64,000 nt of DNA from Owenweeksia sp. (lineage in GTDB: Bacteria; Bacteroidota; Bacteroidia; Flavobacteriales; Schleiferiaceae): positions 62,001-126,000 of the forward strand of contig JANQPD010000030.1 of assembly GCA_028285465.1 (NCBI GenBank), written 5' to 3'. Of the stretch, positions 12,348 to 20,437 are shown in pieces. The number at the start of each line of letters is the position of its first letter. Position 1 is the stretch's first letter. Both the position numbers and the translations under genes were made by a program. The notes below the pieces were generated by a model. It was not told where the DNA came from, ran no database searches, and saw only the letters and a program-made list of their open reading frames with translations.

Positions 12348-12950
12348 CTACCCCAAGTCTTTTTTGATTTTCTTTATCTGTTTCTTAGATAGAAATCTAA
12401 AAATGTTGTTGACATTAACCCCAACACCGGCAATATTGGGTTCAAGGATTATAGTATCGTTTAAGATTTTACCGATTCCCCCCTTCAACTCCTTTTTGAC
12501 TTGAAAGTCTTTAATTTGCTTTTTGTCCTTAATGTCTTTGAAAACCTTCTCTATCAACTTCAAAACATCCTGTGGAGTTTTACACAGCTTACCAATTTCA
12601 ATGAAAACGAGTTTGTCTTCTGGAATCCTTTCACCCCTTGCTTCCTGATTGTCTCTTTCCAGAAAGTACTTGGGATGGATTGTTGTAATCATCAGAGCTG
12701 GAAGTAACTCTTTAGGATCAATTCCATTAATTGATTCCCAAGACATTAATTCCGAGTAGAAGTGACTTTCAGGTATCCCCTGAATAGCTACAGAATTGTT
12801 CTCAGAAGCGAATTTGGCAATTTTATCGAAACTGCTCCGGAGAGTATTGCCGATAGGTTCATCCCAATTATAGTAATCCAGAATGTAGAGGTAATAGTCT
12901 CGATGAACATTCTCTGGTATTGCCGCAATCGTACTTATTTTAAGCCCCAT
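12348..12950 (-). CDS. Hypothetical protein
   Basis: 200 aa ORF, no family recognised; at the edge of the defence-like block. Confidence 0.6.
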   Translation of the reverse strand: MGLKISTIAAIPENVHRDYYLYILDYYNWDEPIGNTLRSSFDKIAKFASENNSVAIQGIPESHFYSELMSWESINGIDPKELLPALMITTIHPKYFLERDNQEARGERIPEDKLVFIEIGKLCKTPQDVLKLIEKVFKDIKDKKQIKDFQVKKELKGGIGKILNDTIILEPNIAGVGVNVNNIFRFLSKKQIKKIKKDLG

Positions 12951-13030: not shown

Positions 13031-13651
13031 TCAAAGCCGCTTTATATCCCACTTCGATAAACCTGTTAGAGCTTTGATCTCGTCAATATCATAGCCTTTG
13101 TCTTTCATGTTTTTGGCTATTTCCAGCTTATTTTCCTTAATAGCGCGTTCCATTTCAACCTTTTGCTTCCAGCTTTTGAGCTCCGCTTTGTCGCGGTCTA
13201 CAATTTCAAAAGCACCCGACTGTTTCAGTTCTGCTATAATGCCCTGGTCTGCAAGGCTTACGTATTCCGTTTCGGAGATCACCAAATGGTCAATTACTTC
13301 GATCTTGATCAGTTGCCCCACTTTCAGCATGTGGTCGGTCAGGGTTCTGTCGTCTTTAGAAAGTTGCATGCTGCCGCTCGGGTGGTTGTGCACCAAAATG
13401 GCGCGTACGGCCAGTTTGTAAATGGCCATTCGGAAAACATCTGGCGGGTTGGCGTGCACCCGGTTTACGGCACCCAAGCCAATCAGTTCTATAAACAGGA
13501 TCTTATTCTGATTGTCTAGCCCGATTACCCAAAAGTGCTCCTGGTTGCGGTGTATCTTATTTTCGCGCAGCAGTATTTGCTGCATTACGCGGTACACATC
13601 CTCGGAGTTGAGGATCTTGATTTTCTGCTCTTTGCTCAGGCGGACGTTCAT
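13031..13651 (-). CDS. RadC-like JAB/MPN-domain protein with C-terminal helical tail
   Basis: Metal-binding HNHPSGSMQLSKDDRTLTDHM; tail KLEIAKNMKDKGYDIDEIKALTGLSKWDIKRL. Confidence 0.85.
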   Translation of the reverse strand: MNVRLSKEQKIKILNSEDVYRVMQQILLRENKIHRNQEHFWVIGLDNQNKILFIELIGLGAVNRVHANPPDVFRMAIYKLAVRAILVHNHPSGSMQLSKDDRTLTDHMLKVGQLIKIEVIDHLVISETEYVSLADQGIIAELKQSGAFEIVDRDKAELKSWKQKVEMERAIKENKLEIAKNMKDKGYDIDEIKALTGLSKWDIKRL

Positions 13652-13747: not shown

Positions 13748-13942
13748 ATGAATCGGATCAAAGAAGTGTTGAAAGAAAAGCACATCACCCAAACCTGGCT
13801 GGCCCAAAAACTGGGCAAAAGTTACAATATGGTAAACGCTTACGCGCAGAATAGAAGGCAGCCCTCAATAGAAGTTCTCTACAAAATAGCAGAGATACTT
13901 GAAGTTCAGCCATCAGAATTATTACAGGACAAAAACAATTAG
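13748..13942 (+). CDS. XRE-family HTH regulator, probable R-M controller
   Basis: ITQTWLAQKLGKSYNMVNAYAQNRRQPSIEVLYKIAEILEVQPSELL; 3 bp upstream of the methylase gene. Confidence 0.88.
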   Translation: MNRIKEVLKEKHITQTWLAQKLGKSYNMVNAYAQNRRQPSIEVLYKIAEILEVQPSELLQDKNN

Positions 13943-13945
13943 TGA

Positions 13946-16186
13946 ATGGATAAAATATTCAAAGAAGGTATTAAAAAGGGTCTAATTTCATTCAATGAAG
14001 ATAAAACGAGAATTAACTACCTAATTCAAGGCAAAAGTGACAACTTCAAAGACCCTGAAGAAAAAGTAAGAGCTCAAATCTTTTTGGAACTGATTCTTAC
14101 CTATAAGTACCCTACTAAAAGAATCGAATTAGAAGTAGTAGTTCCAAGAAGAACTCCTAATGACTTTGCAGACATTGTTGTTTTTTCGGATGACCTTAAG
14201 AAAAGTCCTCTTATAGTAGTTGAATGCAAAAAGCAGGAAATATCAGAAGCAGAATTTGTCCAAGCCATTGAGCAAGGCTTTGGAAATGCAAACTCGCTTT
14301 CTGCCGAATATTTGTGGGTTACCACCGGGCTAAAATCTAAGTACTTCAATGTAAAGGATTTTCCATCGATGGAAAGGGTAACTAATCTAATTGCTTCAAT
14401 CCCCAGATTCGGTCAATCTAAGCTAGCTAAAGCCAAATTCTATAAAGGAGGAAAGGATGAAAACGGGAATGATGCCTTTGACCTTGAAACAGTAAAGCAA
14501 TCCGATTTAACAAGGATATTCCAACAAGCTCATGACGCTCTTTGGGCAGGTGGAAAGAGAAACCCTAGTGAGGCATTTGATGAACTTGATAAGTTGATCT
14601 TTTGTAAGATATGGGATGAAAGAAAACACAGAAAACCAGGGCAGCCATATGATTTTCAGGAATTTACTGGTGAAGACCCGGAATATTTATTGAAAAGGAT
14701 AAAGGCTATTTATGAAGAAGGTAGGCGTAAAGATCCTGAGGTTTTTAAAGAACCCATTCGTCTTTCTGCCAATGAACTGAAAACAATAGTTGGGTATCTT
14801 GCTCCGGTTAATCTTCACGATACTGACCTTGATAGCAAAGGCCGAGCATTTGAAACCTTCATGGGTTCTTTTTTCCGTGGAGACTTTGGACAATATTTCA
14901 CCCCACGTGAAGTAGTTGATTTTATAATTAAGTCCCTTCCTATTACCAATGAATCGTTCGTGCTTGATACCTCATGTGGCAGTGGTGGATTTTTGCTTTA
15001 TGCGTTGGATAAAGTCAGAAGAAGAGCAGACGAAATGGCGGAAGAAGGTTATTTCAAGAAGGGTTCAATCGAGCATAAAGACTATTGGCACAAGTTTGCA
15101 GAAAAAAGGCTTTTTGGAATTGAGATATCCGAAAGTATTGCCCGAACCGCCAAAATGAATATGATCATTCATGATGACGGTCATACCAATGTAGTGGCTT
15201 GCGATGGTTTGGCTCCGGCAGACTACAGGCACCCAAAGCCGGGTGAAACAAAGGAAGAAATTGAAGAAAGAGAAAAGTACAATAGAAGAACAATCCAGGG
15301 CATTACCGGAAATCATGATTTCAAGTACAACCATTTTGATTTCATTGTTACCAATCCACCTTTCGGCTCCGCAATTAAATTGGCTGAGCAAGCCTATTTG
15401 AAAAATTACGGGTTGGGTATCAAAGATATAAGTTGGATTGATCAAAAAATCAAAAACACTCATTTAAGCTCTCCCCGAGATTCTCAAAGTACAGAGGTAC
15501 TTTTCTTAGAACAGTGTCACAATTTTTTAAAAGAAGGCGGGTATTTGTCCATTGTAATACCAGATGGCATCTTGACAAATAGTAGCCAGCAATACATCCG
15601 AGATTGGATTGAGGAAAAATATAGAATTGTAAGTGTAGTTTCACTTCCGCAAACTGCATTTTCTGCCAATGGTGCTGGTGTAAAAAGCTCGGTTCTGTTT
15701 CTAAAAAAGTATTCTCAGAAACAATCAGAAAAAGTAAGGGCAATAAAAAGACGTATTCAAGATCGATTGTGGGAAAGGAACGAATATAGCGGAGAGTATC
15801 GAAGACTTGCAAAAGAGAAAAGTGATAAAACAAAAAACTATGAAGGACTTGACTCTTATCTACCCGAAGAGGTTGATTGGGACGAACTGGATAAAAAAGC
15901 GCTCAACGACTTAAGGCGTACAGAAGAATATAAAACCTGGAAGTCGGATATTAGCACCTATTATAAAGAACAAACAGAAGAACTTAAAGAAAGGCTTCAC
16001 GAAGAATACCTTAGTTCATTCGGTTCAGAATTAGCAAATTATCAAATCTTTATGGCCATAGCAGAAGATATTGGCTATGATGCTACAGGAAGAAAAACCA
16101 AAACAAATGAGCTAAAGCAAATTGGTAACGAACTAACCAGTTTTATTGAGTCAATAGAGAATAAGGAAGAGGATTTTTTCGTCTAA
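13946..16186 (+). CDS. Nuclease-methyltransferase fusion (HsdR_N-like PD-(D/E)XK domain + N-6 DNA methylase)
   Basis: N-terminal FADIVVFSDDLKKSPLIVVECKK nuclease motif; methylase motifs FGQYFTPREVVDFI, VLDTSCGSGGFLLYALD, FIVTNPPFG. Confidence 0.9.
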   Translation: MDKIFKEGIKKGLISFNEDKTRINYLIQGKSDNFKDPEEKVRAQIFLELILTYKYPTKRIELEVVVPRRTPNDFADIVVFSDDLKKSPLIVVECKKQEISEAEFVQAIEQGFGNANSLSAEYLWVTTGLKSKYFNVKDFPSMERVTNLIASIPRFGQSKLAKAKFYKGGKDENGNDAFDLETVKQSDLTRIFQQAHDALWAGGKRNPSEAFDELDKLIFCKIWDERKHRKPGQPYDFQEFTGEDPEYLLKRIKAIYEEGRRKDPEVFKEPIRLSANELKTIVGYLAPVNLHDTDLDSKGRAFETFMGSFFRGDFGQYFTPREVVDFIIKSLPITNESFVLDTSCGSGGFLLYALDKVRRRADEMAEEGYFKKGSIEHKDYWHKFAEKRLFGIEISESIARTAKMNMIIHDDGHTNVVACDGLAPADYRHPKPGETKEEIEEREKYNRRTIQGITGNHDFKYNHFDFIVTNPPFGSAIKLAEQAYLKNYGLGIKDISWIDQKIKNTHLSSPRDSQSTEVLFLEQCHNFLKEGGYLSIVIPDGILTNSSQQYIRDWIEEKYRIVSVVSLPQTAFSANGAGVKSSVLFLKKYSQKQSEKVRAIKRRIQDRLWERNEYSGEYRRLAKEKSDKTKNYEGLDSYLPEEVDWDELDKKALNDLRRTEEYKTWKSDISTYYKEQTEELKERLHEEYLSSFGSELANYQIFMAIAEDIGYDATGRKTKTNELKQIGNELTSFIESIENKEEDFFV

Positions 16187-16194
16187 GCCCTGAT

Positions 16195-17655
16195 TTGGAT
16201 AGAGACAAACTGTTTCTACTGGATTGGGGCAAAAAAGAAAAAAGGTTTGACCCATTTTATTATATCCCTTCCCTGGTTGCGCTTGAAGAAAAGGTACTTC
16301 AAAGAACGAAATATCGGTTAAGAGATTTCATTGAAAAGATCAGTAGTGGAGCTACCCCCTCTAAAAAAGAGGCTGAAAAATATTATACCGATGGTAAGAG
16401 CGGGGTGCCGTTTGTACGTGTGCAAAACTTAAACCCTTCAGGGGAACTGTCGCTTGATGATGTAGTTTACATTAATAGAGATACTCATGAAGGTATGCTT
16501 AAAAGAAGCCAAGTCCAAGAAAACGATCTGATTACCAAAATTACCGGGGTAGGGAGGATGGCCGTTTCTAGCGTACCACCCAAAGGATTTGAAGGTAATA
16601 TCAATCAACATTCGGTTTGTATTAAGACAAAAAGTCGTGAGGTAAGTGAAATTATAGCTGCTTTTCTCAATTCCGACATAGGGGAGAAATTGGCTTCAAG
16701 AAGAGCTACGGGAGGAACAAGGCCGGCTCTTGATTACCCTTCACTAAGAAGCGTTCCTATTTTCTTTGATGAAAAGATAGGTGAACTAGCTACAGACTTT
16801 CGATTAAAAAAGAATGACAAGAAAAAGGAACTTGAAAGCTTACTCGAAAAACGGTGGTATATCTTGAAAACGGAATTGAACATTAACATTCCGGAGATTA
16901 ATCTTCGAAAGTTGGCAAATAGGATATTCATTGCAAAGTATTTCGAGATTCTCGGTAATAGGATAGACCCTAAAAAATACACATCGTATGCAAAATCCTT
17001 ATTTAACAGTATTAATAATGCAGATTTTGAAAAAGTACCTTTGAGTCAGCTTATTACTGATTCCGTTTCTGGTAATTGGGGTAAAGATGAAGTAATTAGT
17101 AGCGAGCAAAATAAATACTCCAAATGCTTAGTAATTAGGGCAACGGAGTTTGATAATAAGTATAATTTGAATCTAGAAAGTCACAGGGTTAAGTTCAGAT
17201 ACATCGAAAATAAAAGGCTCATTAGTCAAGACATTCAAATTAATGATCTATTGCTGGAGAAATCGGGGGGTAGTCCAGATCAACCTGTTGGAAGAGTTTC
17301 TATACTCTCCACTGATATTCTTAAGTCTGGCAATGAAATTTCATTCAGCAATTTTATTCATAAGATTCGGTTGGACAATTCACGCATTATACCAACGTAT
17401 GCTTTTTATTATTTAAAGTTCCTCCATAAGATTGGTCTGACTGATTTAATGCAAAGTCAAACGAGTGGTATTAGAAATTTGATTCTAAATGAATATTGGA
17501 AGTGTTTAGTGGTATTGCCGAATCTTAAGGTACAAGAAGAAATCTGTAATAAAATTGAAGAAATGACTTTCGAAGCTCTGAGAGTAAAGGGTGAGATTAG
17601 AGAGTTATCTAAACAGTTTTCTAATCAAATTACCAACCTGATTCTGAATTTATGA
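16195..17655 (+). CDS. hsdS: Type I-like specificity subunit (HsdS)
   Basis: Two target-recognition-like halves: SSGATPSKKEAEKYYTDGKSGVPFVRVQNL and later LITDSVSGNWGKDEV...; position after methylase; TTG start. Confidence 0.85.
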   Translation: MDRDKLFLLDWGKKEKRFDPFYYIPSLVALEEKVLQRTKYRLRDFIEKISSGATPSKKEAEKYYTDGKSGVPFVRVQNLNPSGELSLDDVVYINRDTHEGMLKRSQVQENDLITKITGVGRMAVSSVPPKGFEGNINQHSVCIKTKSREVSEIIAAFLNSDIGEKLASRRATGGTRPALDYPSLRSVPIFFDEKIGELATDFRLKKNDKKKELESLLEKRWYILKTELNINIPEINLRKLANRIFIAKYFEILGNRIDPKKYTSYAKSLFNSINNADFEKVPLSQLITDSVSGNWGKDEVISSEQNKYSKCLVIRATEFDNKYNLNLESHRVKFRYIENKRLISQDIQINDLLLEKSGGSPDQPVGRVSILSTDILKSGNEISFSNFIHKIRLDNSRIIPTYAFYYLKFLHKIGLTDLMQSQTSGIRNLILNEYWKCLVVLPNLKVQEEICNKIEEMTFEALRVKGEIRELSKQFSNQITNLILNL

Positions 17656-19184
17656 TACTCAGGGGAATATTAGATAATTCATTGGGTCAATATTGTATCA
17701 GAGGATATGCCTATCTCAATGATCTGGAAAAAATTTCAAGAGCAGACTTGTCCTTCCAGCGTAACCTCATTGCATATCAGGAAGGTAGAATTCGAGGGTT
17801 CTTAGAGAATAACCCAAACCTATTCTTTCCGGAAGTAATATTGAGCTATCAGGTAAAGTATGACTTTTCAAAATCAGGTTCAAAATCAATAAACCCTTTA
17901 GGTAAGATCATTAACGGTGAGTATTTCAGGTCAAATGTTGACGAAATCATTTTTTCAAGCCGAAAAGTAGATTATAAAAGTCAATCTGATAGTCGGGGAA
18001 CTTTTGACTTGAAAGTCGTTACAGTAACAATCGATAATCAATTTGTAGAAGAATGTATTGAAAACGAAAGCGAACCTTTTTTGAGGATTGATGGCAATCA
18101 TAGACTGAGTGCAGCCAAGGCTTTTGATTCCAGTTCAATTAAAGAATTGGTGACTCCGTTTTGTCTTATCCTATTACCAGAAAAAACCGATAGCGATAAA
18201 TTTCAAAAAACCATCTTTCATAACATCAACTCCAAAACAATACCATTAACACCAGAGGAGGTCTATAGAGTAGTGTTGGACGATGCCATTAATTTTTCTG
18301 ATGCCTACCTGAAAGAATCGAGAGACTTTGGTCTCCATTATGTACATGCACGACAGATCATTGAGAATATTCAGTGGGGCAGATATCCGAAATTAGAGGC
18401 AATTCTAAAGAGCGAAAATGGAGAAGAATCTTATAGGACCGTATTTGTCGATCTATTCTGGATGCTCAGTGAAGAGGGTAAACTAAAGGAAGAGCCAAAG
18501 AGGGAAGATGTGCCCAACGCTCTGCACAAAGTAAATATCATTTATCAAGAGTATAATGAACTAAATAAAACTCATAACATCGGCCTGCTCACTACCTTTT
18601 TATACTACGCATATCAAAAGGCCTATTTTGAGCTAGAGTGGTTTACAGAGTGGGTGCTGGACAATCGCATTTTTGAAATAAGGCAATCTTCTTCGAATGA
18701 CTTGAAGTCGATTTTTAACAAAATAATTCTTTCTAGAGAGCGGACAATATTCATTTCCATGCCATTCGGAGATTCGGTTACTGAGAACCACTTTACTTTC
18801 ATGAGTAATTTGATTCGTGAGATTAATGAGGAGAAAAAGGCACACATAAAGCTATTTCCGTTGCGGATAGATAAATACAATAATGGTACGGCATATAAAA
18901 TCTCTGATGAAATACTGGATAAGATAGCATCCTCAGGCTTATTGATTGCAGATTTGACTAAGTCCAATCCTAATGTCTATCACGAAGTCGGTTACCTAAT
19001 GGGTTTGTTTCGTGAGCGAGAGCACAAGAAACTCAATTTGATCACCATTGTGAATACCAGTCACACTCTCTTTCAAGAGATTGGATTTAATATTAGGGCG
19101 CACAAAACAATTGGCTTCGAAGACACAAATGAACTTAAAGAGCCTCTTAAAGCTGAAATAGTGAACTACTATTTTAAAGAGTGA
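17652..19184 (+). CDS. DGQHR/DndB-like domain fused to TIR/deoxyribosyltransferase-like domain
   Basis: N-terminal FLRIDGNHRLSAAKAF and FHNINSKTIPLTPEE; C-terminal IFISMPFGD...GLLIADLTKSNPNVYHEVGYLMGLF; ATGA overlap with hsdS. Confidence 0.75.
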   Translation: MILRGILDNSLGQYCIRGYAYLNDLEKISRADLSFQRNLIAYQEGRIRGFLENNPNLFFPEVILSYQVKYDFSKSGSKSINPLGKIINGEYFRSNVDEIIFSSRKVDYKSQSDSRGTFDLKVVTVTIDNQFVEECIENESEPFLRIDGNHRLSAAKAFDSSSIKELVTPFCLILLPEKTDSDKFQKTIFHNINSKTIPLTPEEVYRVVLDDAINFSDAYLKESRDFGLHYVHARQIIENIQWGRYPKLEAILKSENGEESYRTVFVDLFWMLSEEGKLKEEPKREDVPNALHKVNIIYQEYNELNKTHNIGLLTTFLYYAYQKAYFELEWFTEWVLDNRIFEIRQSSSNDLKSIFNKIILSRERTIFISMPFGDSVTENHFTFMSNLIREINEEKKAHIKLFPLRIDKYNNGTAYKISDEILDKIASSGLLIADLTKSNPNVYHEVGYLMGLFREREHKKLNLITIVNTSHTLFQEIGFNIRAHKTIGFEDTNELKEPLKAEIVNYYFKE

Positions 19185-19786: not shown

Positions 19787-20437
19787 ATGAGCATAGTAGT
19801 AGTAATAGGTACAATTCATTCAGAAGGTGGTGCATGCACCTCAGAGGAGTTATTACGGATTATTGATGAAATCTCTGCTGAAACAATTTTTGTTGAAGCC
19901 TCAAAAGAGAAATTTCCATTGATGCTTGATGCAGTTAATACTTTCAATACTCCTGAGATAAATGCGCTAAGAGAAATCGTAAAAAGGAATTCAATCAAAA
20001 TCGAACCCATAGATTTAGATAATGACCCATTCGATAACCGACTAGAGGTCATGCAGTCACTATTTCCCAAATATATTAAGGAGTACTATTATGCATCCCA
20101 AATTCAAAGGAATGGATGCTGTGATCTAGGTTTCAAGTACCTAAATGGTAAGGATAGCGATCAAATCAATTACGACAAATCAATAATGGAGAGAAGGTTT
20201 GTAGAAAGAGTCAATAACCTAAAATTGTCAGAGACTTATTCTGATTGGTTAAGGTGGAACGATGAGCGAGAAAATCACTGGATAAGGTCAATCCATAGAT
20301 TCCTGAGCTCAAATAAATTGACAAAGGCTGTATTTCTTGTTGGGTCAGCACACAGGATTAGATTGATGGAGAAAGTTCGAAATCTGACTTCCGAAAATGA
20401 GTCAATAGCTGAATGGGATTTTTATTATTTTGATTGA
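19787..20437 (+). CDS. TraB/Tiki-superfamily-like protein
   Basis: VVVIGTIHSEGG...AETIFVEASKEKF...KAVFLVGSAHRIRLMEKV pattern. Confidence 0.55.
   Translation: MSIVVVIGTIHSEGGACTSEELLRIIDEISAETIFVEASKEKFPLMLDAVNTFNTPEINALREIVKRNSIKIEPIDLDNDPFDNRLEVMQSLFPKYIKEYYYASQIQRNGCCDLGFKYLNGKDSDQINYDKSIMERRFVERVNNLKLSETYSDWLRWNDERENHWIRSIHRFLSSNKLTKAVFLVGSAHRIRLMEKVRNLTSENESIAEWDFYYFD

Follow-up and report, generated by a model that had tools for sequence, protein, structure and literature searches.

A DGQHR and TIR-like fusion protein encoded behind a type IIB-like restriction-modification pair: a proposed second layer of antiviral defence

Among known antiviral systems, restriction-modification (R-M) enzymes are the oldest, and many phage-borne inhibitors of them exist. 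A locus of Owenweeksia sp. raises the question of what a third protein might be doing when it is co-translated with such an enzyme. Within the window, by which we mean the whole stretch of 64,000 nucleotides that was analysed (contig JANQPD010000030.1), a gene for a nuclease-methylase fusion (M) and a gene for an HsdS-like specificity subunit (S) are followed by a gene, here called DT, whose product joins a DGQHR domain to a domain resembling TIR proteins and nucleoside deoxyribosyltransferases (NDT). We propose, with a probability of roughly 0.6, that this is a two-layer antiviral locus, in which the R-M enzyme formed by M and S is backed by DT as a second-layer effector that would cleave nicotinamide adenine dinucleotide (NAD) or nucleotides.

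A restriction-modification pair and its third protein

The initial annotation had described four co-directional and tightly packed genes, and their positions were confirmed exactly, including the gaps of 3 bp between the XRE gene and M and of 8 bp between M and S, and the ATGA overlap of S and DT. The XRE gene, counted at that stage as a member of the system, does not belong to it. Of 61 related loci, only 1 has such a gene ahead of M, and on these grounds it was ruled out as a system component, leaving it as a local neighbour and a candidate controller outside the conserved unit. The M-S-DT operon itself covers 13946-19184, about 5.2 kb.

M matches the Pfam families HSDR_N_2 (E = 8.9e-17) and N6_Mtase (E = 8.4e-33). 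Its N-terminal PD-(D/E)xK-like nuclease, first read from the letters of the sequence, is supported both by the former match and by the conservation of its residues among M homologues (D76 in 62/62 covering rows, K95 in 63/63 and E93 in 62/63), and S matches the PADLOC model Specificity_I with E = 2e-60. Since D76, E93, K95 and the NPPF motif are nearly invariant in 63 homologues, M-S is likely to be a working R-M enzyme. RM.BsaXI (8w0p) is a type IIB enzyme of solved structure, and a profile built from 33 M homologues matches it over columns 10-684 (E = 7e-67), spanning both the N-terminal nuclease and the whole methylase. With type I HsdM structures the match is confined to the methylase part, and among solved structures BsaXI is clearly the nearest to M, for which the initial annotation had named BcgI as a comparison. 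The suggestion of a type IIB architecture for the pair, as opposed to type I, therefore stands: as in BsaXI, the nuclease and the N6-adenine methylase share a single chain with intact PD-(D/E)xK and NPPF motifs, S is separate, and there is no helicase. The two enzymes differ in that M of the window is shorter (746 versus 916 aa) and in that BsaXI has not been reported with a DGQHR-TIR gene.

No HsdR is encoded in the operon, and the whole genome contains neither a SWI2/SNF2 domain of the HsdR type, which rules out a type I system with HsdR acting in trans, nor any N6_Mtase other than that of M. An HsdR-type helicase is also missing in 10 of 22 operon-bearing genomes, if these assemblies are complete. 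The earlier description of the system as HsdR-less is accordingly right for the window genome but not for the system at large, because the same third gene follows a real type I HsdM-HsdS-HsdR set in one clostridial clade. M and S also match the MAD2 and MAD5 profiles of the MADS system, but with scores of 312.7 of 720 and 51.9 of 400, far under the curated cut-offs, and the operon holds no other MADS genes; membership in MADS was ruled out.

The N-terminal part of DT belongs with the DGQHR family. The NCBIfam model of this family, TIGR03187, was found in 58 of 60 DT members at E < 0.01 (best 2.6e-16), the window DT scoring 25.3 bits, under the curated cut-off of 58.85. The hallmarks of the family are a QR pair, the DGQHR motif and FxxxN (PMC4619093), and all three are nearly invariant in DT (Q36-R37, D147-G-N-H-R151 and F189-N193). 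The assignment made at the outset thus holds for the domain but not for the motif itself, which reads DGNHR throughout, its third residue being N and never Q. Predicted viral structures matched by DT include DNA-sulfur modification-associated, GmrSD_N and ParB/sulfiredoxin models, which we read as matches of this N-terminal part, together with NDT-named models, which we read as matches of the C-terminal part. DT thus resembles DndB, DpdB and SspE-GmrS in its ParB/Srx superfamily membership and in the common hallmarks QR, DG[QN]HR and FxxxN, but differs from them in its DGNHR sequence, in the fused TIR/NDT domain, and in being linked to an adenine-methylating R-M enzyme rather than to phosphorothioate or deazaguanine pathways.

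The C-terminal part was examined in an AlphaFold (AF2) model of the window DT (mean predicted local distance difference test score, pLDDT, 90; predicted template modelling score, pTM, 0.80). Its top fold matches in the PDB are the TIR domain of SPARTA TIR-APAZ, the TIR domain of SpbK, and then nucleoside deoxyribosyltransferase, with a probability of 1.00 and modest E values of about 1e-3 to 1e-2 over ~150 columns of this one domain only. A PADLOC TIR effector match covers residues 406-451 of the window DT, the PADLOC TIR effector model PDLC00733 is matched by 52 of the 60 DT members, and the TIR and NDT families of Pfam are both matched by DT members, below cut-off. N441, E445 and G447 are invariant in 60 DT sequences. 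In the secondary structure of the model, E445 sits in helix 440-456, after strand 430-434, a position that we take, from knowledge of the families and without superposition, to be that of the catalytic Glu in TIRs and deoxyribosyltransferases. Model and fold matches together give a flavodoxin-like fold with a Glu in the helix after strand 3, and the reading of the last gene as a fusion of a DGQHR domain with a domain of TIR/NDT-like fold, advanced in the initial annotation, is upheld on both counts by the profile matches, the model and the fold matches. The nearest known effectors are those of SPARTA TIR-APAZ and of CBASS with TIR, to which DT is related by its C-terminal fold, nearest to SPARTA TIRs, and by the PADLOC TIR effector match; it differs from these systems in having no Argonaute, APAZ or cyclic-nucleotide sensor, its sensor-like part being the DGQHR domain.

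Table 1. Features of the operon and of its products, in window coordinates
Feature	Position	Strand	Basis
XRE/HTH_3 regulator, 64 aa	13748..13942	+	Pfam HTH_3, E = 5.8e-13
M, nuclease-methylase fusion (type IIB BsaXI-like RM subunit), 746 aa	13946..16186	+	Pfam HSDR_N_2 and N6_Mtase
M nuclease motif, D76 ... E93-C-K95	14171..14230	+	Alignment of M homologues
M methylase motif IV, NPPF (NPPF470)	15353..15364	+	63/63 homologues
S, HsdS-like specificity subunit, 486 aa, TTG start	16195..17655	+	Methylase_S, E = 3.6e-7, two stretches
DT, DGQHR-domain and TIR/NDT-fold fusion, 510 aa	17652..19184	+	AF2 model, 60-sequence alignment
DT residues 1-235, DGQHR (ParB/Srx, DndB-like) domain	17652..18356	+	TIGR03187, viral-library fold matches
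DGNHR motif, DT residues 147-151	18090..18104	+	Identical in 74/74 DT sequences
TIR/NDT-like domain, DT residues 363-510	18738..19181	+	PDB fold matches, PADLOC PDLC00733
NVYHEVG motif with putative catalytic Glu445	18972..18992	+	Helix after strand 3

Conservation of the operon and exchange of its parts

In 85,462 species genomes, one scan recovered 106 DT relatives, of which the best 80, representing 78 loci, were kept. These best 80 of 106 come from Bacteroidota, Balneolota, Pseudomonadota, Thermodesulfobacteriota, Nitrospinota, Planctomycetota, Thermotogota, Bacillota, Campylobacterales, Opitutae, Gracilibacteria and Melainabacteria. Gene linkage was counted over 68 loci, namely those with at least 4 kb of upstream sequence and one further genome. 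A BsaXI-like M lies within 3.5 kb upstream of DT on the same strand in 62/68, type I HsdM-HsdS-HsdR genes take its place in 5/68 (Pfam HsdM_N, EcoR124_C, HSDR_N and SWI2_SNF2), and an S-like gene stands alone in 1/68 (L064); 33/68 show a 4-bp overlap (ATGA) of DT with the gene before it. The third gene is thus kept beside methylase and hsdS pairs in other genomes, as had been anticipated, and DT has the coupling to an R-M operon that is looked for in a guardian-type effector gene. The loci are a ranked sample related by descent, so that these counts are not independent trials. Two later finds are consistent with the linkage, one with the order M-S-DT (L106) and one with a distant DT behind a divergent M-S pair (L140). 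Distances among DT and among M proteins are correlated (Mantel r = 0.48, a value that 0 of 2000 permutations reach), a correlation that shared vertical descent would also give. In random whole-genome samples DT is rare, with 3 occurrences in 396 genomes of the window's phylum.

The two ends of DT have had separate histories. A different C-terminal subtype, marked by FLARWYP ... DLGT ... RHNVMVEVGYA, is found in 18 DT members from Bacillota and Melainabacteria. Two members, L051 and L068, are 60% identical in the N-terminal part and 21% identical in the C-terminal part, whereas within either subtype the C-terminal identity exceeds the N-terminal one, and judging by these identities the C-terminal enzyme has been exchanged while the sensor-like part stayed. 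A model of the clostridial type (L066, pLDDT 84) is nearest to deoxyribosyltransferase and to the cytidine monophosphate (CMP) N-glycosidases BcmB and MilB, followed by the SPARTA TIR. Enzymes of both head types split N-glycosidic bonds of nucleotides (PMC9503650). The R-M partner has been exchanged as well: the DTs attached to type I genes form one clade (support 100/99) with one change on the tree, from which it follows that DT changed partner a single time, leaving a type IIB-like enzyme for a type I enzyme.

The slot behind M-S can also be filled differently. M-S homologues occur in the absence of DT (L100 and L102), the share of such pairs resting on few genomes. In the first of these (L100:5008-10203), a BsaXI-like M-S pair is followed, in the position of DT and overlapping S, by KwaA (E = 6.5e-24) and KwaB (Pfam, E = 1.3e-20). 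Kiwa thus fills the same third-gene slot that DT occupies elsewhere, but its proteins are unrelated to DT, and Kiwa is not part of the window operon.

Proposed function and competing explanations

In the mechanism that we propose, M and S would form a type IIB-like enzyme with two activities, adenine methylation of its own target and helicase-free cleavage of DNA that is not methylated, and DT, as the co-translated third protein, would act as the second-layer effector. The DGNHR domain, of ParB/Srx fold and probably a nucleotide-binding switch that binds or hydrolyses a nucleotide, would keep the TIR-like domain silent until restriction fails, either because the R-M enzyme is inhibited or because invading DNA evades it. 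The TIR-like head would then break N-glycosidic bonds in NAD and so halt the infected cell, while the clostridial heads may perhaps use nucleoside monophosphates as substrate. The architecture, the fold, the invariant residues of catalytic type, the conserved operon and the exchanges of head and of R-M partner are observed here; the substrate, the silencing, the trigger and the protection against phage are inferred. The clearest precedent for such coupling is SspE, in which the GTPase activity that links recognition to the activity or release of the effector depends on the Arg of DGQQR (PMC13251355), and a backup role has been proposed for DndB (PMC10853773).

The closest parallels to the proposed role are PrrC with EcoPrrI and PARIS, R-M guardians whose effectors are tied to R-M or antirestriction sensing and are proposed to become active when restriction is inhibited (PMC12707154). 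They differ from DT in chemistry, PrrC and the AriB of PARIS being tRNA nucleases and DT a TIR/NDT-type enzyme joined to a DGQHR domain. No published description of a DGQHR and TIR combination was found in the literature searched, outside of which most subscription journals lie, nor does this fusion come up in the passages searched in papers on the biology of Dnd, BREX and R-M. On the proposed reading, DT is a guardian-type R-M add-on with a new domain pair. If the proposal is true, R-M enzymes would have a guardian that cleaves NAD or nucleotides instead of tRNA, that is co-translated with the enzyme it backs up and conserved over many phyla, and in which both the effector head and the guarded enzyme can be exchanged. 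For the DGQHR family, whose known settings are DNA phosphorothioate and deazaguanine systems, M-S-DT adds a third and bears directly on what the DGQHR domain senses.

Several points weigh against this proposal. DT is not needed for R-M, as the M-S homologues that do without it make clear. The DGQHR family also holds regulators (DndB) and modification helpers (DpdB), so that DT could itself have a regulatory role. Sequence, moreover, hardly separates the TIR fold from that of deoxyribosyltransferases, so that NAD is only a tentative substrate of DT.

An alternative trigger, which we regard as unlikely while giving it the most serious consideration of the competing accounts, is foreign modification of DNA, the trigger put forward in the initial annotation. 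The DGNHR domain would bind modified phage DNA that blocks M-S, hydrolyse a nucleoside triphosphate (NTP) and release the TIR-like enzyme, much as SspE responds to phosphorothioate. The ParB/Srx fold and DGQQR are common to SspE and GmrS, modified DNA stimulates the GTPase of SspE and licenses its effector (PMC13251355; PMC4619093), and type IV modification-dependent restriction enzymes, Mrr or GmrSD, neighbour DT at 17 loci. Against this, no modified-base pocket was identified in DT, which is tied to R-M operons and not to any modification pathway, and its transfer to a type I partner left it unchanged in kind, a fact that sensing of the R-M state fits equally well. We favour a guardian trigger over sensing of modified DNA because the link that persists, across two R-M types, is the R-M enzyme itself, although the evidence does not firmly separate the two.

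Roles for DT as a regulator or in base exchange are less likely than either of these. As a DndB-like, nucleotide-responsive brake on R-M, DT would bind NAD or nucleotides with its C-terminal domain without cleaving them, a doubtful reading that draws on the negative, ATP-modulated control that DndB exerts over a modification system (PMC4619093, PMC10853773) and on the three DGQHR hallmarks that DT has in common with it. The catalytic-type Glu is nonetheless invariant in 60 DT sequences, a different enzyme with the same fold has taken the place of the C-terminal domain, as expected for effectors, and the window locus already has a separate regulator in its XRE gene. Rather speculatively, DGNHR proteins might form a general R-M add-on that uses glycosidic-bond chemistry on DNA or nucleotides. 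An NTP-driven sensor, to which a TIR or an N-glycosidase head can be fitted, would then serve type IIB and type I enzymes alike, and some versions would excise or exchange bases of the invader DNA where other enzymes cut its backbone. That DT itself acts on DNA, pairing a DpdB-like NTPase with a glycosylase of deoxyribosyltransferase type for the excision or exchange of bases at R-M sites in the manner of DpdA-DpdB, is improbable, since matches to DpdB (8/60 DT members in NCBIfam, 15/60 in PADLOC), the likeness of the clostridial C-terminal domain to deoxyribosyltransferase and CMP N-glycosidases, the partnership of DpdB, a ParB-like ATPase, with a base transglycosylase (PMC12839542) and an earlier proposal of DNA as the substrate of NDT-type domains in proteins of this sort (PMC3710099) are set against a window head nearest to NAD-cleaving SPARTA TIRs, the lack of linked base-synthesis genes, and a free exchange of effector subtype and R-M partner that speaks against a dedicated DNA-modifying step.

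Neighbouring genes and variant loci

A divergent RadC-like JAB gene (window 13031-13651, -) adjoins the operon, and the C-terminus of its product matches the end of Rpn/PDDEXK transposase family models. The flanking open reading frames at 12348-12950 (-) and 19787-20437 (+), of 200 and 216 aa, have no credible match in Pfam, NCBIfam or PADLOC.

Ymh genes, which have been counted among HEPN domains (PMC3710099), adjoin or lie near DT at 6 loci, and in some Bacillota operons a Ymh (HEPN-type) gene stands directly before DT (L045, 7243-7977; L051; L060; L083). An origin of DT in phages or plasmids was considered and rejected, as the phage collections hold lone TIR-like relatives only and the fusion was not found there. 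The nearest phage relatives of the C-terminal domain are lone TIR-like proteins of temperate Staphylococcus and Streptococcus phages, plasmids hold one decayed DT copy, and IMG/VR holds two loci with a DGNHR domain (L107 and L116). On a Leisingera plasmid (L003:8864-11107), M is in frame with the remainder of DT in a gene annotated as N-6 DNA methylase, a fusion that, as its sequence reads, evidently arose when S and the beginning of DT were lost in a deletion. On a viral contig (L116:4691-7814), M is directly followed by a DT-like gene with no S between, the contig end interrupting the locus; its neighbours, judged by sequence reading only, are terminase-like and lysozyme-like genes.

A further arrangement is that of L064:2129-9536, also seen in L107, where no BsaXI-like M was found and a DT copy lies behind the genes of three other proteins. 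One, of 1016 aa, has an RNA polymerase-like domain of the two-barrel kind (Pfam RdRP, E = 5e-10; motif GGADFDGDM), one, of 280 aa, is without matches, and one, of 649 aa, joins an ECF (extracytoplasmic function) sigma factor to an HsdS target-recognition domain. To our knowledge, it is very unusual to find a sigma-HsdS fusion next to an RNA polymerase-like protein.

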